Below are positions 1 to 62,400 of a DNA stretch of 64,000 nt, piece after piece. The translations under genes were made by a program, and so were the position numbers. Below the pieces are notes generated by a model. It was not told where the DNA came from. It searched no databases and was given only the letters and a program-made list of their open reading frames with translations. The DNA comes from Allochromatium tepidum (GTDB lineage: Bacteria > Pseudomonadota > Gammaproteobacteria > Chromatiales > Chromatiaceae), in NCBI RefSeq assembly GCF_018409545.1, contig NZ_AP024563.1, forward strand, positions 602,501-666,500. The letters run 5' to 3'. Within the stretch, counting starts at the first letter, position 1. The number at the start of each line of letters is the position of its first letter.

Positions 1-1
1 G

Positions 2-208
2 CGCCTTTCAGAGGTCTTGACCACCACCCGCTTCGACTCCGCCGAGTCGCTAGCCCAGACCATCAAGCGCTATGTTCAAGTCTATAACCAACACCTTCCG
101 CAGAAAGCCCTCGGCCACATCGCCCCGATCCAGGCACTCAAGGACCGGCGCGAGAAACGCCCTGAACGCTTCAAAAAGCGTGTCACAATCTCCGGGGACT
201 TGACACTT
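2..208 (+). pseudogene. IS481-like transposase, 3' fragment
   Basis: The reading frame is open from the window edge and gives the C-terminal tail of an rve-type (IS481/IS3 group) transposase. The recognisable stretch includes 'YVQVYNQHLPQKALGH', 'PIQALKD' and 'RPERFKKRV'. Family members normally end a few residues after 'FKKRV'; here the homology stops near base 200 and the frame runs into unrelated IS982-like sequence, so this copy is broken at its 3' end. The catalytic residues would lie upstream of the window. The family call rests on remembered motifs. Confidence 0.6.
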
Positions 209-529
209 GGGTTATCTCAGCGCCGCGCTGCGCGCCGATCCGGCCGAGGTCCATGTCGCGTTGCAGACCCCATACCGCTCCAACATGAGCGATCCCCGCA
301 ATCCGGCGTTCGTAGCGCACTTACAACGCACCCGGCGCCGGATCGCAACCGTGATTGGGCAACTGACCGAGCGCTTCCACATCCAAACCGTCCGGGCGCT
401 TGATCTCCGCTCCGGCATTTGACCGCGCGGATGGCCCGTAAGGTGCTCGCGCATACGCCGGCCATCTGGATCAATCGCTCCCTGGGGCGCCCCGATCTAC
501 AGTTCGAGGGCTTGATTACAGTCGGATAG
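207..529 (+). pseudogene. IS982-like transposase, C-terminal fragment with a frameshift
   Basis: Two frames together give the C-terminal third of an IS982-type DDE transposase. The first frame carries the 'TVIGQLTERFHIQTVRA' segment, which contains the last catalytic Glu. Around base 410 the frame is lost, and a second frame continues with 'HLTARMARKVLAHT' and 'LGRPDLQFEGL' to a stop at 527-529. The intact family reads straight across this join, so one indel has occurred. The N-terminal part is replaced by the IS481-like remnant. A separate IS982 N-terminal piece lies at 4999-5435. Confidence 0.6.
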
Positions 530-574
530 AAAGTCGCGCATCGCGTTTAAATTGATCTCCGGAACACCTGCACC

Positions 575-2767
<2,193 letters not shown>

Positions 2768-2830
2768 GCTCATCAGGCTTGATGAGGTCGAGGCTGTTCT
2801 ATTTGACGTGGATTGAAGGAGAATCGTGCT

Positions 2831-3403
2831 GTGAATGAAACCGCAACAGAGGCTGACAGTCAGTCGCCGGCCCGACCGGATGCCGGTCTCCATAATCCGG
2901 ATCCTGCCTATCTGCGCACGCTAATCCAGCGATCCGGTCTGACTCAACGGGCGGCGGCAACGTCTATCGGTATCGGTGAACGACTTCTGAGCGCCTACCT
3001 GGCCGATCGCGAGGTGGCATCGGCCAAATCGGCACCCTATCCGGTTCAATATGCCCTGGAACAATTGGCGCTCTCGGCACCCCCGGTCGCCGATCCCGCA
3101 CCGGTCGCCGATCCCGAGAAATTGAAGAGACGCCGTGCCGCACGTCGGCGGAAAAAAAGCCTGAGTGAAATTTTTAGCGAAGGATGGCTATCGTGGTTGG
3201 ATAATGGGGCCAATCCTGCGCTCGATCCACTGGATATGGATGACACCTGTGCGTTGGTCTCCTGGCTCAAAGGATTTCACAATGGCTGGTGTCATTTTCC
3301 CGATAATCCATCGACTTCATTCCGAAGTGCGCTGCAAACCAAACTGGCGGATCGACCGGAACTGTTGAATCGGTTGCTGCAGTGCCTTGGGGAGGACGAG
3401 TAG
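2831..3403 (+). CDS. Hypothetical protein with XRE-like N-terminal helices
   Basis: I do not recognise this 190-residue protein. The GTG at 2831 is chosen because AAGGAG lies at 2816-2821, nine bases upstream; a TTG at 2813 would put that site inside the gene. Residues about 25-65 ('LIQRSGLTQRAAATSIGIGE') read like a helix-turn-helix of the kind found in Cro/XRE proteins. A proline/valine-rich linker and a very basic patch ('KLKRRRAARRRKKSL') follow, then an acidic C-terminal part rich in Trp. The composition suggests a small DNA-binding protein, but this is inference. Local GC content is lower than in the neighbours. Confidence 0.6.
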   Translation: MNETATEADSQSPARPDAGLHNPDPAYLRTLIQRSGLTQRAAATSIGIGERLLSAYLADREVASAKSAPYPVQYALEQLALSAPPVADPAPVADPEKLKRRRAARRRKKSLSEIFSEGWLSWLDNGANPALDPLDMDDTCALVSWLKGFHNGWCHFPDNPSTSFRSALQTKLADRPELLNRLLQCLGEDE

Positions 3404-3427
3404 CGAAAGCCGGATCGCGCCCGCACG

Positions 3428-3922
3428 ATGGAGCTACACGCCGCCGAAGTCCTAGCTCAGCGCGAACTGTGTCGCTTTCCCCAACTCGCCGACTGGTCAT
3501 TCGGCTGGAACCGTCGCCGCCGGGCGCATGGGTTGTGCCGTTACGATCGACGCCGGATCGAGCTCTCGGCGCTGCTGACCGCGCGTGAGCCGGATCCGGC
3601 GCTCATTCTCAACACCATTCGCCACGAGATCGCCCATGCGCTCGCCGGTCCCCGTGCCGGGCATGGTCCGCGCTGGCGAGCCTGGGCCGAGCGGGTCGGC
3701 TGCACGCACATCGCCGGCTCGCGCGCGGCCTCACCCGAGACCGAACCCCTGCCGGCGCGCTATGTGCTGGTGGCCCTCGTCGATGGCCGGGAGCAGGTGA
3801 TCCGGCACTATCACCGCCGCCCGGCGCGCGCCTTTCTCGACTCGCTGCCGCAGCGCCATCTGCGCGGACGGCCCGAGACACGCGGGACGTTGCGCCTGGA
3901 GCGGGTAAAGACGACGGGATAG
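3428..3922 (+). CDS. SprT-like zinc metalloprotease family protein
   Basis: The 164-residue protein carries the SprT/SprT-like signature: HEIAH at residues 66-70 and a third putative zinc ligand at His79 in 'AGHGPRW'. The catalytic Glu (E67) is present. SprT-like proteins are HExxH metallopeptidase-fold proteins, often encoded beside DNA-repair genes; the substrate is unknown here. No C-terminal zinc-ribbon cysteines are visible, so this is the short form. The gene begins 25 bases after the preceding hypothetical gene and may be cotranscribed with it. Confidence 0.75.
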   Translation: MELHAAEVLAQRELCRFPQLADWSFGWNRRRRAHGLCRYDRRRIELSALLTAREPDPALILNTIRHEIAHALAGPRAGHGPRWRAWAERVGCTHIAGSRAASPETEPLPARYVLVALVDGREQVIRHYHRRPARAFLDSLPQRHLRGRPETRGTLRLERVKTTG

Positions 3923-4192
3923 ACTCGGCTCCATCTTCAAACCACAGCGCAAGCGTTCGAGCATGTTCACGATGATTCAGTCTGTCCGTTGGCCGCCGGC
4001 CCTCTCGATCCTGATGCTTGGCGGGACTGGTAGCGCACTCGCCCAGACCGACTCGCCCGTCTGCGCTCAGGAGGCCCGCGAACAGGCCCAACGAGCCAAC
4101 TGCTCGGCCCGCTCAACCCGATCGAACGCCAGTACGCGCCCGAGCGGTTCTATGTTGCGGGCGATCCCGCCATCCTGGAGACGGGCGCGCGG

Positions 4193-4762
4193 GTGTCGAT
4201 CGTCGGCTCGCGGCAGGCGTCGCCCGAAGGTTTGGCCCGTGCCCGCAAGCTCGCGCGTCGTCTGGCCGGTGAGGGAATCGTCGTGGTCTCGGGGCTTGCG
4301 CTTGGGATCGACACGGCGGCTCACACCGCCACCATCGCGGCGGGTGGCCGGACCGTCGGCGTGATCGGCACACCGCTGGATCCTTCCTATCCGCGCGAGA
4401 ACGAATTGCTCCAGGCACGTATCGCCGCCGAGCATCTGCTGATCTCGCAGTTTGCGCCGGGCACCAAGACCCAGCGTTTTCACTTTCCCCAGCGCAACCG
4501 CACGATGGCCCTGATCTCGGATGCCACGATGATCGTCGAGGCCGGTGAGACCAGCGGCTCGCTGTCCCAGGGCTGGGAGGCGCTTCGTCTGGGGCGGCTG
4601 CTCTACATCACGCGCGCTCTGGCCGATGATCCGGCGCTCCGCCGGCCGTCGAAGATGCTCGATCATGGCGCTCAGATTCTGAGCGATGCGACGCTGCCCG
4701 ATTTCCTGGAAGCCTTGCCGTCTCGGCTGACGCCGGTACTCGATGCCGCCGTTCCCTTCTGA
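4193..4762 (+). CDS. DprA/Smf-like DNA-processing protein, start unclear
   Basis: The protein belongs to the short DprA-like (Rossmann-fold) group: 'SIVGSRQASPEGLARA', 'VVSGLALGIDTAAH', 'GVIGTPLDPSYP', 'NRTMALISDATMIVEAG' and 'QGWEALRLGR' are all family hallmarks. Homologous sequence clearly continues upstream in the same frame to about base 4100 ('LLGPLNPIERQYAPERFYVAGDPA'-like, about 31 more residues), but no ATG, GTG or TTG occurs in that frame between the stop at 4031-4033 and the GTG at 4193. Translation would need a CTG (4100) or a truncated start at 4193, or the original 5' end has been lost. Family members bind single-stranded DNA; the role here is inferred. Confidence 0.7.
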   Translation: MSIVGSRQASPEGLARARKLARRLAGEGIVVVSGLALGIDTAAHTATIAAGGRTVGVIGTPLDPSYPRENELLQARIAAEHLLISQFAPGTKTQRFHFPQRNRTMALISDATMIVEAGETSGSLSQGWEALRLGRLLYITRALADDPALRRPSKMLDHGAQILSDATLPDFLEALPSRLTPVLDAAVPF

Positions 4763-4998
4763 ACTCCCCTTCTGTTCGTTGCTCGCTACTTCGATCGCTT
4801 CATTTGTCACTGTGCTTTCTGTTTGATCCGCTACCGCCACCAAGGTCTGCTGCGTCGCGAGTCTTGAGGGCTACTTAACCCGATGTGCGACTTTTTAACG
4901 GCCTGTGTGGATGCTTGACGTCTGGTTGGAGCGACAAGGCCTTCTGAACTACGCTGAGAAGAGGATCCACTCACCTCAGAGGCGTTCGGGAGGCGGCC

Positions 4999-5435
4999 AT
5001 GTCGCTGGAAGACTTTATCATCGTGGTGTATGGCTGGGTAGACGATCAACTCAAGGAGTGGTTGGGACCGACAAGGTACCTGCGTCAGCGTGGGTTTGCC
5101 CCCCCAGCTCAGTGATAGCGAGGCGATCACGCCGGTGGTCGTCGGCGAGTTTCTCGGTTATGACACCGACGTGGGAATCTGGGCGTATTTCCGCCAACAC
5201 TGGGCGGCCGGGTTTCCGGGGCTGAGGTCGCGCAGCGGTTTTGCACGCCAAGCGGCCAACCTCCGGGTGGCCACGCAAGCGCTTCAGGAGCGTTTGAGCC
5301 GTGACTTGGGGGCCATGGACGATCCGGTGCATCTCGTTGACGGCTTTCCGGTGCCCGTCTGTGTGATCACCCGCGCGCGACGCTGTGTGCGGTTCTCGGC
5401 GGTGGCCGATTATGGTCACTGTGCGGCTAAACTGG
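4999..5435 (+). pseudogene. IS982-like transposase, N-terminal part, frameshifted and interrupted
   Basis: The frame starts 'MSLEDFIIVVYGWVDDQLK', an IS982-type beginning. At a run of seven C residues (5099-5105) the frame shifts by one: 'QRGFAPQLSDSEAIT' is only read through if one C is removed. The second frame continues with 'GEFLGYDTDVGIW' and 'HLVDGFPVPVC', which holds the first catalytic Asp region, to about 'YGHCAAK'. There the reading is cut by another insertion sequence whose terminal repeat begins at 5436. No C-terminal half follows on the far side, so this copy is dead. Confidence 0.65.
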
Positions 5436-6659
5436 ACTTTGGACAAAAACACGCTTCTCCCCGACGCCCAGCAGGCTTTCTTGAAACGTTTCGTGGTATA
5501 TATCTGATCAAGCCGTCGCGGTGAGCCTCGGTTGGCGCTTGAAGACGATCGGGGGCCGTGGCCGTCTCTGGCCTGGCGTGCCTTTGATCCGGGCTGGGGA
5601 GATACCCCGGCGTTTGGGAGGGCGGGCCGGTGTGCCGATCTGACGAATAAGGCGTGCGAAGTCGCGCTGCGCACGGGCCGGTGAGAGGCGGGTGTCGGCG
5701 AGCGGTTTGGGGAGGAAACGCTCCCACGGTCTGGGCCGATCGCCGGCCGGCGGGGCGGTGAGCCATAACTGGACGTAGGCCAGGCAGACGCGCGGCCACC
5801 CGTGCTCTTCGTGGGTGAGGTCGGGGGTTTGAAAGCGGTCGAGGAGCAGGTGATTTGTGCCGAAGCGGAAGAAGTGCTCCCGATCGAAGCGTTGGCGGTA
5901 GGCCGGTTCAATCTGTTGCCGGGACAGTTCGGCGCGGCGTTGGCCCATCACGCTCAGCCGGAGTGGGCGCTTGAAAAGCGCGCGCCCGGTCTGGGCGTCG
6001 AAGACACGGCAACGGACCCCATCGAAGGGGTGGTCCTGCATGGGGCTGTCGCGATGTCCGCGCATCAACCGGGCATTCCGGCGCTCCAGCGTAAGGCGAA
6101 TCGCCCGTCCGGAGGCGGTCTGATCAGACCATTCGGCGCTCTGGGAGGGACTGCCCCAGGTCTCGGGGGCGGCGAGGCGAAAGGTCTCACCATACCGGAT
6201 CGGATGCCCGCACGCGCCGTCGGTGGCGGGCGCGCCGGGCGATGACGACATGAGTGGAGCAGGCACGGAGCGCATGCCGATACGCCGCGTGGCTGTAGTG
6301 GGAGTCGGCCACCTGCACGCTCAACGCCGTTGCATAGGGTTGGGCGGGATCGGCCGGCACAGCGGCCATCTGTGAGGCCGCCACGGCCATGGCGGTGGTG
6401 TCGAAGGCCGGGTTCAAACTCCGCTCGACCACCGAACGGGCCTGGGTGTTGGTGCACAAGCTATCGAGTAGATTGAGGCAGGCGTCACGGCGTGCGCCAA
6501 GGTGCTCGTAGAGGCGTCGGCGGAAACGCGGGAGCGATTCCAGGCCATCTTTCAACAGGGAAGTGGTCATCGTTCGCTCTCCTCTGCAGAGGATCTGTCT
6601 ACTCCAACTGTACGTGAGCGAACGATTTTTGCCGGCTGGTAGGACACTTTGTCCAAAGT
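5436..6659 (-). mobile_element. Insertion sequence (~1.22 kb) with 12-bp terminal inverted repeats
   Basis: The ends are inverted copies of ACTTTGGACAAA at 5436-5447 and 6648-6659, and the enclosed minus-strand transposase fills most of the interval. The element lies inside the IS982-like transposase at 4999-5435. I could not identify a convincing target-site duplication by eye. The right flank at 6670-6678 contains another 'ACTTTGG', so the exact right boundary deserves checking. Confidence 0.6.
5508..6570 (-). pseudogene. IS transposase with one frameshift (NF041680-like family)
   Basis: Read from ATG at 6570, the first frame gives 'MTTSLLKDGLESLPRFRRRL' to 'CSTHVVIAR'. The second frame then continues with 'GHPIRYGETFRL', 'FFRFGTNHLLLDRFQTPD', 'RPWERFLP' and 'RDFARLIRQIGTPA' to a stop at 5508. 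These motifs match a transposase family often annotated as NF041680 putative transposase. The frame changes somewhere around 6200-6245, so a full-length product is unlikely unless frameshifting occurs. The family name is from memory; the transposase nature is supported by the flanking inverted repeats. Confidence 0.6.
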
Positions 6660-6799
6660 TCAATAACTCGACTTTGGCCATTTTTGCGCCCAAGCGGAGG
6701 GCTGAGCGGTGCCCGAGCCGATGGTGACAGAGTGCAGAGCGATAGCGGGACATAGACGGTATCGTTTGATGTCGACCAAAACACAAGCGATGTGTGCCG

Positions 6800-7480
6800 A
6801 TGAGTCCTCTGCCGGCCTCGATTGTAGCGGTTTTACAGCCGTTTGCCTGCCTGTTTACCAACCCGACGTGGGTGCATGTGCAAGTGTTGCCGGCCGGAAC
6901 GCTGTTGGCGCCAGGGCCGCGTACGGTGGTGGTCGACGAGACGCTGGAGCGGCGCAAAGGGGCGCAGATTTGGGCCAAGGGGATGTATCGCGACGCGGTG
7001 CGCTCCAGTCACAGCCGGGTAGTGACGTGCCTGGGGGTGCAGTGGATCTGTATGGCGCTGCTGGTACCGGTGCCCTGGAGCGATCGGCCGTGGGCGCTGC
7101 CGTTTCTCACGCGCCTGGCCCCCTCGCAGCGGGCCAACGAGGCCGCCGAGCGCCGGCATCGCACGACGGTGGAGCTGACCATTGGGATGGTGAGCCTGGT
7201 GGCCCGTTGGCTCCAGCATCGGCGCTGGGTGTTGGTCGGCGATGGGGCCTACGCCGGCGTGCAGCTGGGCTTGGAAGCGTTGCGGGTCAACGTCACCCTG
7301 GTCTCGCGCCTGCGTCTGGATGCCCGTCTTGTTTACCTTTCCCGCCGCCCCGGTCCCGGGGCGGCGTGGACCCAAGCCCAAGAAGGGCGCGGCGCTGGAG
7401 AAACTGAGCACGCGCCTGGAGGAGGCCCGGACCCAGGGCGCGCCGACAACCGTGCAATGGTACGGACAACCCAAGACTTT
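6800..7480 (+). pseudogene. IS701-like (DDE_5) transposase, internally deleted and truncated
   Basis: From ATG 6800 ('MSPLPASIVAVLQPFACLF') the frame reaches 'GPRTV' and then jumps directly to 'VVDETLERRKGAQIWAKG'. In intact relatives roughly 50-60 residues separate these two blocks, so an in-frame internal deletion near 6925-6930 is inferred. 'YRDAVRSS', 'PVPWSDRPWALPFLT' and 'LVGDGAYA' follow as in the family. Near 7330-7345 the frame shifts and the next frame carries 'GRRGPKPKKG'. Homology ends around 7480, only about 40 bases from the 3' end of the tRNA gene. Confidence 0.6.
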
Positions 7481-7519
7481 AGCGGGTCTCGGCGGGTTTA
7501 TGCACCAACGCCAAAGATA

Positions 7520-7813
7520 TGGCGTCCCCGACAGGATTCGAACCTGTGACCTTCCGCTTCATACCACTATAGCTTTCGCTACCAGTCAAAGGCTGTTTGT
7601 GGTCTGGACTTTCCCTTCACCCTAGGCAATGACCCTTAGGTGCTGCCCGTCAAGTCTCTGCACCGTCCCATCAATGGGCTTGGCTCAGGATTGCCACCAC
7701 CATGACGTGCTGAGGTTTCCCTGAATTTGAGCAGATTCACACAAGGGGTTTTCCGCCTTGGTGCCCATGCAAACTTAGGAGGCGGATGCTCTATCCTGCT
7801 GAGCTACGGGGAC
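7520..7813 (-). tRNA. tRNA-Arg(CCU) split by a group I intron
   Basis: The two exons are 7777-7813 (37 nt) and 7520-7559 (40 nt, with encoded CCA). Spliced together they form a normal cloverleaf: acceptor GTCCCCG/CGGGGAC, D-stem GCTC/GAGC, anticodon stem TCCGC/GCGGA around the loop CTCCTAA (anticodon CCT), and T-arm ACAGG-TTCGAAT-CCTGT. The break lies directly after anticodon position 36: exon 1 ends in T and exon 2 begins AAGCGGA. Standard tRNA finders could miss the gene or report only a half. The reading of the junction follows the group I rule of U before the 5' site and G at the intron end. Confidence 0.9.
7560..7776 (-). ncRNA. Group I self-splicing intron (217 nt) in the tRNA-Arg anticodon loop
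   Basis: On the minus strand all four conserved core elements appear in order: P (AAATTCAGGGAAACC, 7714-7728), Q (core CAATCCTGAGCCAAG, within 7677-7695), R with the guanosine-binding region (GTGCAGAGACT, within 7642-7663) and S (GGGAAAGTCCAGACC, 7601-7615). The intron starts AAGTTTGC and ends in G (...GGTATG). The small size, lack of an ORF and anticodon-loop location match the tRNA introns known from Azoarcus tRNA-Ile(CAU) and Agrobacterium tRNA-Arg(CCU). Splicing is inferred, not shown. Confidence 0.88.
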
Positions 7814-7877
7814 GTAGATGAGATTCTAGCTTAGACCGACCGACCGGTCACGTTCGCGTGTCGTAAGTGGCCGGAAT

Positions 7878-8165
7878 TCAGACGGACGGACGCCGCCCCG
7901 CCCGCCGCCAGCGCCAGGCCAAATCGGCCAGATGGGTGACGAGCGCCCCGGTCAGGGCCAGACTCACCCAGCCCCACCAAGCCCCCACCAACGCCGCCCG
8001 TAGCGCCAGCATCAGCAGGAACCCCGACAGCAGAAAGCCGATCAGATCCGAGGGCGGAAGCCCTCGCCCGGTGCGCCGGTGCACGAGGGCCAATACCAGA
8101 CCCTCGACCACGATCAGCACCAGGATCAGATCGATGATCCGACCGCTAGCAAACAGCTCGCTCAA
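7878..8165 (-). CDS. Small hydrophobic membrane protein next to bchP
   Basis: A 95-residue protein with about three hydrophobic segments ('IIDLILVLIVVEGLVLALV', 'LIGFLLSGFLLMLALRAALV', 'WWGWVSLALTGALVTHLA') and a basic tail. The likely start is TTG at 8165, which overlaps the bchP stop as TTGA, implying translational coupling with bchP. I do not recognise the family. Its position suggests cotranscription with the geranylgeranyl reductase gene, but no function can be assigned. Confidence 0.6.
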   Translation of the reverse strand: MSELFASGRIIDLILVLIVVEGLVLALVHRRTGRGLPPSDLIGFLLSGFLLMLALRAALVGAWWGWVSLALTGALVTHLADLAWRWRRAGRRPSV

Positions 8166-9355
8166 CGCGGAGACACCAGCCCCAGCAGATGGGCCATGTC
8201 CTTGAAGAAGATCCGCAGATGTGCACCCGGACGCGCCTTGACCAGACGCTTGTTCATGTAGGCCTCCCAGGTCAGATATTGGATGTCCGGGTCGGCGCAC
8301 AGACTGACGAACCGCTCACGACGCTTGTCGCTGGAGTACCAGAAGCGCTGCATGATGCCCAGCACCCAGAACACCTTGCCGTGGTCCTTCATGAAGCGCT
8401 TGCGCGCCTGCTTGAGCGCCTTGGGGTCGCCGGTGCGACAGAACTCGTCGACCGCCTGCGCCGCCAGCCGTCCGCCCATCATGGCGTAATAGATGCCCTC
8501 GCCCGAGGCCGGAGCGACCACGCCCGCCGCATCGCCCGCCAGTAGGATGTCGCGCCCGTTGTCCCAGCACTTGAGCGGTTCGAGCGGAATCGGCGCACCC
8601 TCGCGACGCAGGATCTCGGCATCGGCCAGACCGGCGCGACGGCTCAACTCAGTGCAGGCCGCGCGCAGCGAGAAGCCCGGAACGGCCGTGCCCACGCCGA
8701 CGCTGATCGTATCGCCATGCGGGAAGACCCAGCCGTAGAAGTCCGGCGAGATGTCGCCCTGGTAGTAGACGTCGCAACGGCTGTTGCCGTCGAAACCGGG
8801 CGGGGTGCGCAGGATTTCGTGATAGGCCGAGACATACTTGACCGTCTCATAGCCCGGAACATAGTGCTTGCCGACGAATGAATTGGCCCCGTCGGCGCCG
8901 ATGACGGCACGCGCCCGGATCTGCTCGCTCGGCGAATCGTTGCGCCCCTGGCCGGGACGGTAGACGACGATCGCCGTCCCGTCCGTATCGCGCTCGATCT
9001 TCTCGAAGGTGCCGGTACGACGGGTCGCGCCGGACTCGGCGGCACGCGCCCGCAGCCACTCATCGAAGTGCTCCCGGTCGACCAGACCCACGTAACCGTT
9101 CTGGATCGGCATATCCACCTTGCGGTCCGAAGGCGAGATCATGCGCGCCGAATTGACGCGGTTGGCCAGGACCGATTCGGGCAGATCGAAGTCGCGCATG
9201 GCCTGGGGCGGAATGGCGCCGCCGCAGGGCTTGATGCGCCCGGCGCGGTCGAGCAGGCACACCGAGCGGCCCGCCTTGGCCAGATCATTGGCGGCGGTCG
9301 CGCCGGCCGGTCCGCCGCCGATCACGACGACGTCGAAGGTTTCGAGGTTGGACAT
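8162..9355 (-). CDS. bchP: Geranylgeranyl reductase (bacteriochlorophyll side-chain reduction)
   Basis: The 397-residue flavoprotein begins 'MSNLETFDVVVIGGGPAGA', a Rossmann FAD-binding GxGxxG start, and shows 'KPCGGAIPPQAM' and 'LLAGDAAGVVAPASGEGI', both typical of BchP/ChlP. It reduces geranylgeranyl groups to phytyl groups on bacteriochlorophyll or the diphosphate. The ATG at 9355 is preferred over in-frame starts further upstream because the flavin motif then sits at the very N-terminus as in the family. It lies downstream of bchG in the same direction and overlaps the small membrane protein gene by 4 bases. Confidence 0.92.
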   Translation of the reverse strand: MSNLETFDVVVIGGGPAGATAANDLAKAGRSVCLLDRAGRIKPCGGAIPPQAMRDFDLPESVLANRVNSARMISPSDRKVDMPIQNGYVGLVDREHFDEWLRARAAESGATRRTGTFEKIERDTDGTAIVVYRPGQGRNDSPSEQIRARAVIGADGANSFVGKHYVPGYETVKYVSAYHEILRTPPGFDGNSRCDVYYQGDISPDFYGWVFPHGDTISVGVGTAVPGFSLRAACTELSRRAGLADAEILRREGAPIPLEPLKCWDNGRDILLAGDAAGVVAPASGEGIYYAMMGGRLAAQAVDEFCRTGDPKALKQARKRFMKDHGKVFWVLGIMQRFWYSSDKRRERFVSLCADPDIQYLTWEAYMNKRLVKARPGAHLRIFFKDMAHLLGLVSPR

Positions 9356-9394
9356 GGGGAATCTCGTTGCTGGAGCGTTTGATATGAAGAAATG

Positions 9395-9469
9395 GACAGG
9401 ATTTACAGGAATCAAAACAATGGATTAGAAAATCCTGTCCATCCTGAGAAATCCTGTGAATCCTGTCTA
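9395..9469. repeat. Imperfect inverted repeat between bchG and bchP
   Basis: GGACAGGATTTACAGGA at 9395-9411 is answered by TCCTGTGAATCCTGTCT at 9453-9469, with further AATCCTGTCC and ATCCTGA copies in between. The unit resembles dispersed 'atcctgt' intergenic repeats seen in many proteobacteria. It could form a stem-loop in the bchG-bchP transcript and act as an mRNA processing or attenuation site; that role is inference. Confidence 0.6.
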
Positions 9470-47898: not shown

Positions 47899-48936
47899 TC
47901 AATTGAAATCCTCTTTGTTCTGCGCCTTGGATCGAGCGTCCTGGCGGGCGATGAGGCCCTTGCCCAGCAGCTCCTTGAGATTCTGATCCAGGGTTTGCAT
48001 CCCGTGCGCCTGGCCGGTCTGGATCGACGAGTACATCTGGGCGATCTTGGCCTCGCGGATGAGGTTGCGGATGGCCGGGGTGCCGATCATGATCTCGTGC
48101 GCGGCGATACGGCCGCCGCCGGTCTTCTTCAGCAGCGTCTGCGAGATGACCGCGCGCAGCGACTCCGAGAGCATGGCGCGCACCATGTCCTTCTCGGCCG
48201 CCGGGAAGACGTCGATGATGCGGTCGATGGTCTTGGCCGCCGAGGTGGTGTGCAGGGTGCCGAACACCAGATGGCCGGTCTCGGCGGCGGTCAGGGCCAG
48301 CCGGATGGTCTCCAGGTCGCGCATCTCGCCGACCAGGATGATGTCCGGATCCTGGCGCAGGGCCGAGCGCAGGGCCTCGCTGAAACCGAGGGTGTCCTTG
48401 TGCACCTCGCGCTGGTTGACCAGACACTTCTTGCTGACGTGCACGAACTCGATCGGATCCTCGATGGTGAGGATGTGTTCGTACTTGTTGTCGTTGATGT
48501 GGTCGATCATGGCCGCGAGCGTGGTCGACTTGCCCGAGCCGGTCGGCCCCGTGACCAGGATCAGTCCGCGCGGGACGTCGATGATGTCCTTGAAGCTCTT
48601 GGGGGCCTTGATGTCCTCGAGCGTCAGTACCTTGGAAGGAATGGTCCGGAAGACGGCGGCCGCGCCGCGCTTCTGGTTGAAGGCGTTGACGCGAAAACGC
48701 GCCACGCCGGGGATCTCGAACGAGAAGTCGGTCTCCAGGAACTCCTCGTAGTCCTCGCGCTGCTTGTCGTTCATGATGTCGTAGACGAGCGAATGGACCG
48801 CGCGATGTTCCAGGGGCGGAACATTGATGCGGCGCATGTCGCCGTCGACCCGGATCATGGGCGGCAGCCCGGACGACAGATGCAAGTCAGAGGCGTTGTT
48901 CTTGACGCTGAAGGCAAGCAGTTCGGCGATGTCCAC
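47899..48936 (-). CDS. pilT: Type IV pilus twitching motility ATPase PilT
   Basis: A 345-residue hexameric retraction ATPase: 'DIAELLAFSVKNNASDLHLSSG', Walker A 'VTGPTGSGKSTTLAAMID', 'EDPIEFVHVSKKCLVNQRE', Walker B 'DIILVGEMRDLETI', and the C-terminal 'AIRNLIREAKIAQMYSSIQTG' retraction motif (AIRNLIRE). With PilU it powers twitching motility. Start ATG 48936 is normal for the family. No other pil genes lie in the window. Confidence 0.94.
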   Translation of the reverse strand: MDIAELLAFSVKNNASDLHLSSGLPPMIRVDGDMRRINVPPLEHRAVHSLVYDIMNDKQREDYEEFLETDFSFEIPGVARFRVNAFNQKRGAAAVFRTIPSKVLTLEDIKAPKSFKDIIDVPRGLILVTGPTGSGKSTTLAAMIDHINDNKYEHILTIEDPIEFVHVSKKCLVNQREVHKDTLGFSEALRSALRQDPDIILVGEMRDLETIRLALTAAETGHLVFGTLHTTSAAKTIDRIIDVFPAAEKDMVRAMLSESLRAVISQTLLKKTGGGRIAAHEIMIGTPAIRNLIREAKIAQMYSSIQTGQAHGMQTLDQNLKELLGKGLIARQDARSKAQNKEDFN

Positions 48937-49013
48937 GAGTCCTCCTGTTACGCCACCGTTGGCGGGCCGCGTTCGCGTCGCGGACGCGGCTCAGAACCTG
49001 TTACGAATGCGCT

Positions 49014-59411: not shown

Positions 59412-62400
59412 TCAGGACGTCTTGGCCATCTCTTGCTCCAGCCGCCGCTTGACCGCCCCCGGTGATCCGGTATGACGTGCCAGCCGGTCATAGGCCACGG
59501 GCACCACGAACAGGGTGAAGACCGTCGCCGCCAGCACTCCGGCCAGGATGACGATACCGATGACCGCGCGCGTCTCCGAGCCGGCACCGCTGGAGAGCAG
59601 CAGCGGAATGGCCCCGGCCGCCGTGGTCACGCCGGTCATGAGGATGGGCCTCAGCCGGGTCTCGCTCGCCTCGATCAGGGCCGCGCGGAACTCCTGCCCC
59701 TGATCGCGCAGTTGATTGGCGAATTCGACGATGAGGATGCCGTTCTTGGCCGCCAGTCCCACCAGCATCACCAGCCCGATCTGGCTGAAGATATTGAGAC
59801 TCTGACCGGTGATCCATAGCCCGAACAGCGCCCCGGCCATGGCCGGCGGCACCGTGAGCATGATGACCAGCGGATGGATCCAGCTCTCGAACTGCGCGGC
59901 CAGCACCAGATAGACCACCATCAGCCCCAGTACGAAGACGAACAGCACGCCCTCGGCGCTGCTTCGGAAGTCACGGCTCTGGCCCTTGTAGTCGATCTGG
60001 GCGTATTCGGGCAGATGTGTTCGGACCTTGGCTTCCAGATAGGCGAGCGCATCCCCGAGCGCCAGCCCCTCGGCGAGGCCGGCCTCGATGGTGATGGCGC
60101 GGATGCGGTTGAAGCGGTTGAGGCTCGGCGACTCGGCGGTCTCGGTCACGCGCGCCAGACTCGCCAGCGGGATCAGGGCCTCACTGCGGGCCGAGCGGAC
60201 ATAGATGTTCTCCAGACTGGTCGGGGTGCGCTGTTCATGGCGCTCGCCCTCCAGGATGACGTCGTATTCCTCACCCTGATCCAGATAGGTCGTCACCCGG
60301 CGCGAACCGAGCATGGTTTCGAGCGTGCGTCCGAGTGTGCCGACCGTCACCCCGAGATCGGCGGCGCGGTCGTAGTCGATCTCGACCCTGAGCTGAGGCT
60401 TGGTCTCCTTGTAGTCCCAGTCGAGTCCGACCAGTCCGGGGTTGTCCTTCTCGATCTCGGCGATCAGGATGTCGCGCCAGGCGGCCAGTTCCTCGTAGCT
60501 GCCGCCGCCGATGACGAACTGGACCGGCTTGCTGGTGCGCGCGCCGAAGCCCTGACGCATGACCGGGAAGGCGCGCACCCCCGGCAGGTCGGCGAGCTTG
60601 GCGCGGATCTCGTCCATGATCACCCAGGCCGAGCGGCGCTTGGCGTGACTGTCGAGCACCACGATCACCATGCCGGTGTTGAAGGTGGCCGTGTTGGAGA
60701 AGGCGCGCGGACTGCGCACCAGGAGCCGGATCGCCTCGCCGCTCTCGGTATAGGGCATGAGCCGGCGCTCGATCTCTTCCATGTAGGTCTTCATGTAACT
60801 GTGGGACGCGCCCTCGGGTCCGTTGACCAGGATGAAGAAGGCGCCGCGATCCTCGCGCGGGGTGTATTCCTGTGGGATCCGGTCGAAGAGCCAGACGGCG
60901 GCTCCGAGCGTGCCGATCAGCGCCAGCAGGATGATCCAGGGTTGACGCAGCAGGAATCCGAGCACGCGCCGATAGCGCCGACGGATCGTCAGGAAGACGC
61001 GGTCGATGCCCTCGGCGAGTCCGGGACGCTCGCCCTCGGGCCGATGCGCCGCCGGCAGCACCTTGGAGGCCAGCATCGACGACAGCGAGAGCGCGACGAA
61101 GGCGGAGAAGACCACGGCGGCGGCCATGGTCAGGGCGAACTCGGAGAACAGCCGTCCCAGATCCCCTTGCAGGAAGGCGATCGGGACGAAGACCGCGACC
61201 AGCACGATGGTGGTCGCGACCACGGCGAAACCGACCTGGCGCGTCCCCCGATAGGCGGCGACCAGCCGCGTCTCGCCGTATTCCTCCATGCGCCTGTGGA
61301 TGTTCTCCAGCACCACGATGGCATCGTCGACCACCAGCCCGATGGCCAGCACCAGGGCGAGCAGGGTCAGGATGTTGATCGAGAACCCGAGCGCGAGCAG
61401 CACCGTGAAGGTCGACACGATCGACACCGGCACCGTGACCGCCGGCACCAGGGTCGCGCGCCAGTTGCCGAGGAACAGGAAGATCACCAGCACCACCAGC
61501 ACGATGGCGATGGCGAGCGTCTTGTAGACCTCCTTGATCGCCTCCTCGACGAACACCGAGCTGTCGAAGCTCCGGCTCAGGCTCATCCCCTCGGGCAGTG
61601 AGGCATCGACACGCTCCATCTCGGCCTTGGCTGCCTGGGCGACGGCGATGGTGTTGGCGGTCGATTGCTTGATGATGCCGATGCCGACCATGGGCTTGCC
61701 GTTGCTGCGAAAGAAGGTGCGTTCCTCCTCGGTGCCGCGCTCGACCCGCGCCACGTCGCCCAGACGCACCAGATAGCCGTCCGTGCCGCGCTTGAGCACC
61801 AGCCGCGCGAAGTCGTCCGGGGTGTTGAAGGCGCGCTCGACCCGCACGCTGAACTGACGGTCGATCGATTCGACCTCGCCGGCGGGCAGCTCGATGTTCT
61901 CGGCCCGCAGCGCCTCCTCGACCTCGGCGACCGTCAGCCCGCGCGCGGCCAGGGCGCTGCGGTCGAGCCAGATGCGCATGGCATAGACCTGCTCGCCGCC
62001 GACCCGCACCCGCGCCACGCCGTCGAGCACGGAAAAACGATCGACCAGATAGCGGCGTGCATAGTCCGAGAGTTCGGGCACCGTCATCCGCTCGCTGGAG
62101 AGATTGAACCAGACGATGACGTCGTCGTTGCTGTCGACCTTCTGGATCTCGGGGGTGTCGGCCTCGCTCGGGAGCTGATCGAGGATGCCGGAGACGCGGT
62201 CGCGGATGTCGTTGGCGGCCCCGTCGACGTCGCGGTCGATGCTGAACTCGATGTTGATGCGCGAGCGCCCGTCTTCGCTGGTCGACTCGACGGTGCGGAT
62301 GCCCTCGACCCCGGCGATGCGTTCCTCGATGACCTGGGTGATGCGGGTCTCGACCACGGCCGCGGCCGCGCCGCGATAGGTGGTGCTGATGGAGACCACC

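Follow-up and report, generated by a model that had tools for sequence, protein, structure and literature searches.

Here we describe an intron-split tRNA-Arg(CCU) gene in the purple sulfur bacterium Allochromatium tepidum, found within a 64,000-nt stretch of contig NZ_AP024563.1 (the window). Two statements make up our main reading, namely that a catalytic group I intron lies in the sole tRNA-Arg(CCU) gene found in this genome and that it arrived through replacement of the whole gene; taken jointly, we give them a probability of roughly 0.8. Introns of this kind are already established in tRNA-Arg(CCU), and what is new here is the history of the gene: it appears that the gene, intron included, has taken the place of the unsplit copy found in related species. 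The comparison with seven congeners offers a fairly clean before-and-after view of the way in which a tRNA group I intron without an endonuclease may enter a species. A tRNA search that is blind to introns leaves such a genome without its tRNA-Arg(CCU).

Results

Allowing for introns, ARAGORN and the sequence itself place the following features on the minus strand.

7813-7520, minus strand: tRNA-Arg(CCU) gene, split by an intron (ARAGORN with introns allowed)
7777-7813, minus strand: 5' exon, 37 nt, its last base the anticodon U36 (ARAGORN with introns allowed, sequence)
7560-7776, minus strand: group I intron, 217 nt, terminal base G at 7560 (RF00028 at 53.6 bits, ARAGORN)
7520-7559, minus strand: 3' exon, 40 nt including the encoded CCA (ARAGORN)

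The spliced product is a 77-nt tRNA with a full cloverleaf and an encoded CCA; the cut falls after U36, with the anticodon loop reading CUCCU/AA (insertion site 36/37). A sequence-only reading of this DNA had proposed that two tRNA halves join into a cloverleaf once 217 bases are removed, and it was right in coordinates, strand, length and anticodon. The splice-site bases it expected can likewise be read from the sequence, as exon CCU against guide GGG and a terminal G at 7560; this U and G are as in 82 collected tRNA-Arg(CCU) introns, for most of which the extraction script required them. It had also supposed that ordinary annotation would pass over the gene, and ARAGORN in default mode indeed reports no tRNA anywhere in the 64-kb window. 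The longest stop-to-stop frame of the intron is only 46 aa, so that a homing endonuclease gene has no room in it, and none was found there. A second intron-bearing call by ARAGORN, at 48345-48990 (tRNA-Ala with a 556-nt insert and a mispaired acceptor), was taken as false. Two long plus-strand ORFs, 7242-7625 and 6794-7549, run antisense into the tRNA; the former holds the peptide PDRIRTCDLPL, which we take to resemble a known tRNA-antisense artefact of false gene calls.

An intact second tRNA-Arg(CCU), which would have spoken against the split gene, was found by none of three approaches. Searched with a tRNA covariance model, the genome gave 42 places above the cut-off and two under it, of which one falls in the 3' exon of this gene; ARAGORN gave no other CCU anticodon at the 42 places (30 run as loci, 12 as stretches); and blastn of the whole gene against the genome gave three matches, namely the gene itself and two confined to a single exon. 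The genome tally comes to 41 tRNA types, including the split tRNA-Arg(CCU), and is incomplete in that tRNA-Ile(GAU) and tRNA-Ala(UGC) are absent; these two often sit in rRNA operons, which may be masked here. A tRNA-Arg(UCU) is present.

The group I identity proposed earlier is borne out by the Rfam covariance model. RF00028 matches 7781-7585 on the minus strand with 53.6 bits against a gathering threshold of 50 (E 8.5e-11 for the window), in an alignment spanning model positions 1-253 of 253; no other Rfam match in the window attains gathering level, and at E 0.001 this is the single RF00028 match in the genome (3.38 Mb on two contigs). We proposed 56 base pairs across P2, P3, P4, P5, P6, P6a, P7, P8, P9.0, P9a and P9b, all 56 of which are standard pairs in the window sequence, and followed them through 32 tRNA-Arg(CCU) introns (that of the window and 31 others, which we chose from 82 collected). 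Across these introns 93.2% of cells pair, compared with 79.7% in column shuffles and just 30-43% in structures with slid partners, two controls that both favour the proposed fold, because we had the alignment before us when tracing it on the window row and kinship inflates the scores. Changes on both sides are seen for 36 of the 56 pairs (shuffled mean 23.1), and in 500 shuffles not one of five measures reached its observed value. The helices needed for the argument are as follows.

7764-7779, minus strand: P1, exon CCU (7779-7777) with guide GGG (7766-7764), U.G at the 5' splice site (sequence)
7643-7734, minus strand: P3 (7734-7729 with 7648-7643), enclosing P4-P6, 100% of cells paired
7606-7658, minus strand: P7 (7658 and 7656-7653 with 7610-7606), pseudoknotted with P3 (32-intron alignment)
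7569-7582, minus strand: P9b hairpin with GAAA loop, 7577-7574 (32-intron alignment)

The P3-P9 core with its P3/P7 pseudoknot is present in the window row and covaries in the 32 introns. Both sides have changed in four of the six P3 pairs and in four of the five P9b pairs, the outer pair of P9b being formed in 13 of the 32. P7, the helix that binds guanosine in group I introns, has all five pairs invariant and identical to the 32-intron consensus, an invariance that neither supports nor opposes the pairing. Weak spots lie in P8 (80.5% of cells paired, with one pair in 8 of 32 rows and another in 18) and in P4, whose outer pair forms in 19 of 32 rows. P1 stands outside the covariation count, as the exon end is absent from the alignment; a loose test is that each of the 82 collected introns has a GGG in its first 60 nt. 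The folding energy of the whole precursor is unremarkable (z -1.13; 25 of 200 shuffles fold equally well), in minimum-energy folding that is unable to represent the P3/P7 pseudoknot. On this sequence evidence the element is a real group I intron, one that would be catalytic and would splice in the cell. Its subgroup is presumed to be IC3, from the kind of host and from a resemblance, by recall, to the Azoarcus pre-tRNA-Ile group IC3 ribozyme, which is also a small tRNA intron without a reading frame, hosted by tRNA-Ile.

Around the gene, three further features bear on its history.

8162-9415, minus strand: bchP, the neighbour common to the seven congeners (TIGR02023, E 2.5e-150)
7823-7851, minus strand: promoter-like site GTGACC-17-TAGAAT upstream of the tRNA (consensus scan)
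6794-7549, plus strand: ORF with a partial IS701-family transposase match, its frame entering the tRNA 3' exon (NCBIfam NF049999 at E 6.3e-31, below cut-off; Pfam PF13546)

The genes bchP, bchG, ppsR, bchF and bchN adjoin the locus and fit a phototrophic purple bacterium, in agreement with the purple sulfur bacterial host that had been read from the letters. All eight genomes of the genus, that of the window included, have bchP, and in seven of seven congeners an intronless tRNA-Arg(CCU) lies less than about 0.5 kb from it, in the same place as the split gene. The bchP protein is 83-99% identical to those of the congeners (99% to G001), and the 3 kb of DNA upstream of the tRNA is 91% identical to G001. 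The exons, set against these flanks, show between 10 (G004) and 16 (G007) differences from the congeners in 77 positions, with 14 for G001; these are ungapped counts, which gapped distances understate. As a yardstick, 30 anticodon types were compared with G001 alone (30 of its 44 tRNA matches): tRNA-Arg(CCU) has the 14 differences, and the other 29 types have 0-5, 21 of them none. The changes relative to G001 fall in the acceptor, anticodon and T stems and leave the D stem unchanged. One comparison counts against a replacement, in that G004 is the nearest congener by upstream DNA (94%) and yet shows just 10 exon differences. The 5' limit of the exchanged segment would also be blurred: alignments with G004, G002 and G007 end 70-75 bases upstream of the gene, and that with G001 runs through at 91%.

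The DNA 3' of the tRNA is unlike that of the congeners, with no blastn match at E 1e-10 between window positions 1-7519 and the congeners' 10-12 kb tRNA loci. No exact copy of at least 14 bases of the tRNA 3' end, as an att-like site might leave, was found elsewhere in the window. Further along on this side (4193-6300), a DprA-like ORF (above the Pfam cut-off, below that of NCBIfam) and transposase remnants (IS982-type, below cut-off) stand beside photosynthesis genes.

The nearest introns are those of three genomes (G138, G073 and G112) of genus g67 in the same family, which sit in the same tRNA and are 86-87% identical over 215-217 aligned bases (88-89% by blastn, over nearly the full length). 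Among the 38 aligned rows the next is that of a Candidatus Contendobacter draft at 82%, followed by others at 78% or less. Matches to the g67 loci stop within 3 bases of the ends of the gene, and the 5' flank matches the window's own genus. The exons differ from those of the intron-bearing g67 tRNA-Arg(CCU) at 6 of 74 positions and have the whole acceptor stem GTCCCCG/CGGGGAC in common with them; by exon count the G011 tRNA, which has no intron, is just as close (6 of 77), and the exons alone therefore name no donor. On sequence, the introns do point to g67 as the nearest relatives, the donor-like genomes being fragmented drafts of 340-810 contigs. The consensus scan found one promoter-like site against a mean of 0.2 in shuffles. 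Its GTGAC recurs upstream in the three g67 loci and in the Contendobacter locus, and also upstream of two of 28 distinct intronless genes, which weakens the argument for a shared promoter; co-transfer of a promoter with the tRNA gene is only suggested.

Discussion

Guanosine-initiated splicing is the established chemistry of group I introns, and in the mechanism that we envisage the precursor RNA would fold into P1-P9, a guanosine bound in P7 would cut after U36, and the freed exon end would attack after the terminal G of the intron, leaving a joined tRNA that would then be processed normally. As to its origin, the most economical reading appears to be that a tRNA gene with an intron took the place of the resident one, because the exons diverge while the flank and bchP match the genus, and because the introns match g67 up to the ends of the gene. 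The intron would then have arrived together with its exons, and perhaps a promoter, as part of a split tRNA-Arg(CCU) gene whose donor was a different gammaproteobacterium, either a member of this family or close to it, and recombination would have displaced the native intronless copy beside bchP. This history is probably recent. We would give even odds to the idea that the same process is general and that whole-gene replacement carries an endonuclease-free intron through purple sulfur bacteria and related lineages, a short cassette (intron, exons, perhaps promoter) displacing the resident tRNA-Arg(CCU) and leaving the adjacent photosynthesis genes untouched.

Other histories would have to account for the same exons. 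The intron alone might have moved into the native gene, by reverse splicing or by homing in trans, with the exons drifting later. Reverse splicing requires no endonuclease, and the anticodon-loop site is identical in distant lineages; however, the exon changes relative to G001 are spread over three stems, the acceptor stem agrees in both arms with that of the intron-bearing genus, and the other tRNAs are almost unchanged, all of which makes this course unlikely. Somewhat less likely again is an intron ancestral in the genus or family, with loss in seven congeners and an old allele kept in the window genome. Its support is that a similar intron occupies the same tRNA in three genomes from a different genus of the family, but it would demand many losses, given that blastn finds intron-like sequence in just 30 of the 210 genomes searched in the order, and it leaves a bchP 99% identical to that of G001 beside exons whose divergence exceeds that of all 29 other tRNA types. 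The tRNA-Arg(CCU) host itself was seen in four genomes of the order, namely that of the window, G073, G112 and G138 (two further loci, L238 and L255, have no assigned tRNA).

The gene could also be a remnant whose intron no longer splices, with tRNA-Arg(UCU) reading AGG. Rearranged DNA with a transposase fragment adjoins its 3' end and the Rfam score is barely above the cut-off, but the cloverleaf is intact, as is every one of the 56 proposed core pairs, P7 equals the consensus of the 32 introns and a promoter-like site is present; we regard decay as the least probable of these alternatives.

Under whole-gene replacement, the source of the intron can be sought in its phylogeny. Our script took 194 loci, assigned 144 and left 50. 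ARAGORN mis-split several relatives (e.g., L191, L193 and L194, named Leu or His), and these were re-split by script. The large tree has 138 rows: ten duplicates were dropped (L008, L009, L226-L229, L155, L117, L005, L192), as were the mis-split L070 and L232; L091 and L189 were re-split with ARAGORN's cut, and L087, L100, L124, L134, L161 and L171 were added with it, the other 44 unassigned loci being left out. Both this tree and a 38-row tree place the window intron among gammaproteobacterial tRNA-Arg(CCU) introns; neither has a starred (supported) set containing it. In the 38-row tree one tRNA-Leu(UAA) intron from the family joins it in its eight-row fork (93/95, not starred), and the starred clade that unites six alphaproteobacterial rows (98/96) excludes it. 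A clade of the window intron and its four nearest rows is not rejected, though not preferred either (p-AU 0.43), and the same set with two tRNA-Leu introns is rejected (p-AU 0.008). The tRNA-Leu(UAA) and tRNA-Arg(CCU) introns interleave, a single clade of the 26 tRNA-Arg(CCU) rows being not quite rejected at p-AU 0.052.

The sequence-only reading had also suggested a shared lineage with the Agrobacterium-type introns, or a transfer. The part that stands is the site, which is common to Bartonella, Mesorhizobium and others and is compatible with common descent; identity with Agrobacterium itself, whose intron is absent from our loci, rests on its kin and on PMC7717549. What needs amending concerns the nearest kin: the closest introns are gammaproteobacterial, the supported alphaproteobacterial clade of the 38-row tree does not contain the window intron, and the proximate source was probably a gammaproteobacterium. 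The window intron thus shares with the alphaproteobacterial tRNA-Arg(CCU) introns (Agrobacterium family, Bartonella BbgpI) the tRNA, the 36/37 site and the helices, its 217 nt comparing with mostly 202-248 nt (one of 318) for those collected, and differs from them in its gammaproteobacterial host, its exons and its place outside their six-row clade. The tRNA-Leu(UAA) introns of cyanobacteria and gammaproteobacteria belong to the same intron family, the gammaproteobacterial ones being among the next blastn hits at 76-77%, but are inserted at 34/35 in another tRNA. Going by titles, horizontal movement of tRNA-Arg(CCU) introns was reportedly the subject of Paquin et al. in 1999, and Rudi et al. 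are said to have described in 2002 how an entire intron-bearing tRNA-Leu locus recombines in cyanobacteria, the same mode of spread as proposed here in another tRNA and phylum.

That tRNA-Arg(CCU) introns of this kind are established follows both from their number and from a relative with known activity. Named genomes were scanned with a pattern biased to TCCT ahead of the core, which gave at least 120 loci, and in at least 78 of the 120 loci listed an intron interrupts tRNA-Arg(CCU) at the 36/37 site (the union of separate counts of 75 and 76; scripts fix the site, and ARAGORN agrees independently in most rows). Group I introns have already been described in alphaproteobacterial tRNA-Arg(CCU), and that of Bartonella bacilliformis, in a gene likewise missed by annotation, splices in vivo and self-splices in vitro (PMC7717549). 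The hosts of the 78 loci counted among those listed are Alpha-, Beta- and Gammaproteobacteria, one cyanobacterium, and two drafts labelled Kiritimatiellia and Acidobacteria. Our set adds gammaproteobacterial examples to the tRNA group I introns in the table of a 2014 review, which has them only in cyanobacteria, alphaproteobacteria and betaproteobacteria (PMC4033280); a later paper notes putative group I introns in Beggiatoa and Thiomargarita, their hosts being tRNA-Arg(UCU) and tRNA-Leu(UAA) (PMC4853749). Our literature search, with most subscription papers beyond its scope, found no group I intron paper naming Chromatiaceae, and among the papers listed there was none that dealt with tRNA-Arg(CCU) introns of purple sulfur bacteria.

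In the class, blastn found intron-like sequence in 53 of 369 genomes drawn; many of the matches here and in the order are introns of other tRNAs or the core alone. The Rfam model matched six of 194 family genomes at E 0.01, four of them above the cut-off, and such many-genome counts are lower bounds, as strict filters lose weak matches (G014 matched in one search and not in another).

Several introns in other tRNAs came to light along the way. Genus g8 of the same family holds tRNA-Arg(UCU) group I introns at 34/35 in 18 loci (L231, L233-L236, L240-L244, L246-L250, L252-L254), which form one clade (100/100) in the intron tree, and longer tRNA-Arg(UCU) introns at 34/35 occur in L237, L239, L245 and L251 (genera g17, g50, g21 and g57). 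A tRNA-Arg(UCU) intron of gammaproteobacterium G241 (L273:1265-1588) is placed by ARAGORN at 36/37, and the last 50 nt of the window intron match its 3' end at 90% identity. Group I introns in tRNA-Gln(CUG), and one in tRNA-Lys(CUU), were seen in L002, L003, L190, L272 and L004; those in tRNA-Gln(CUG) lack the usual splice-site U because they are placed after C34. The window gene has blastn matches in 1272 of 72,556 plasmid records, among the matches listed mostly to the intron core at 60-80% identity, and an IncL/M plasmid (L314:1111-1303; NC_004464.2 near 61938-62036) has a group I match of 36.8 bits, below the 50-bit cut-off, between listed genes.
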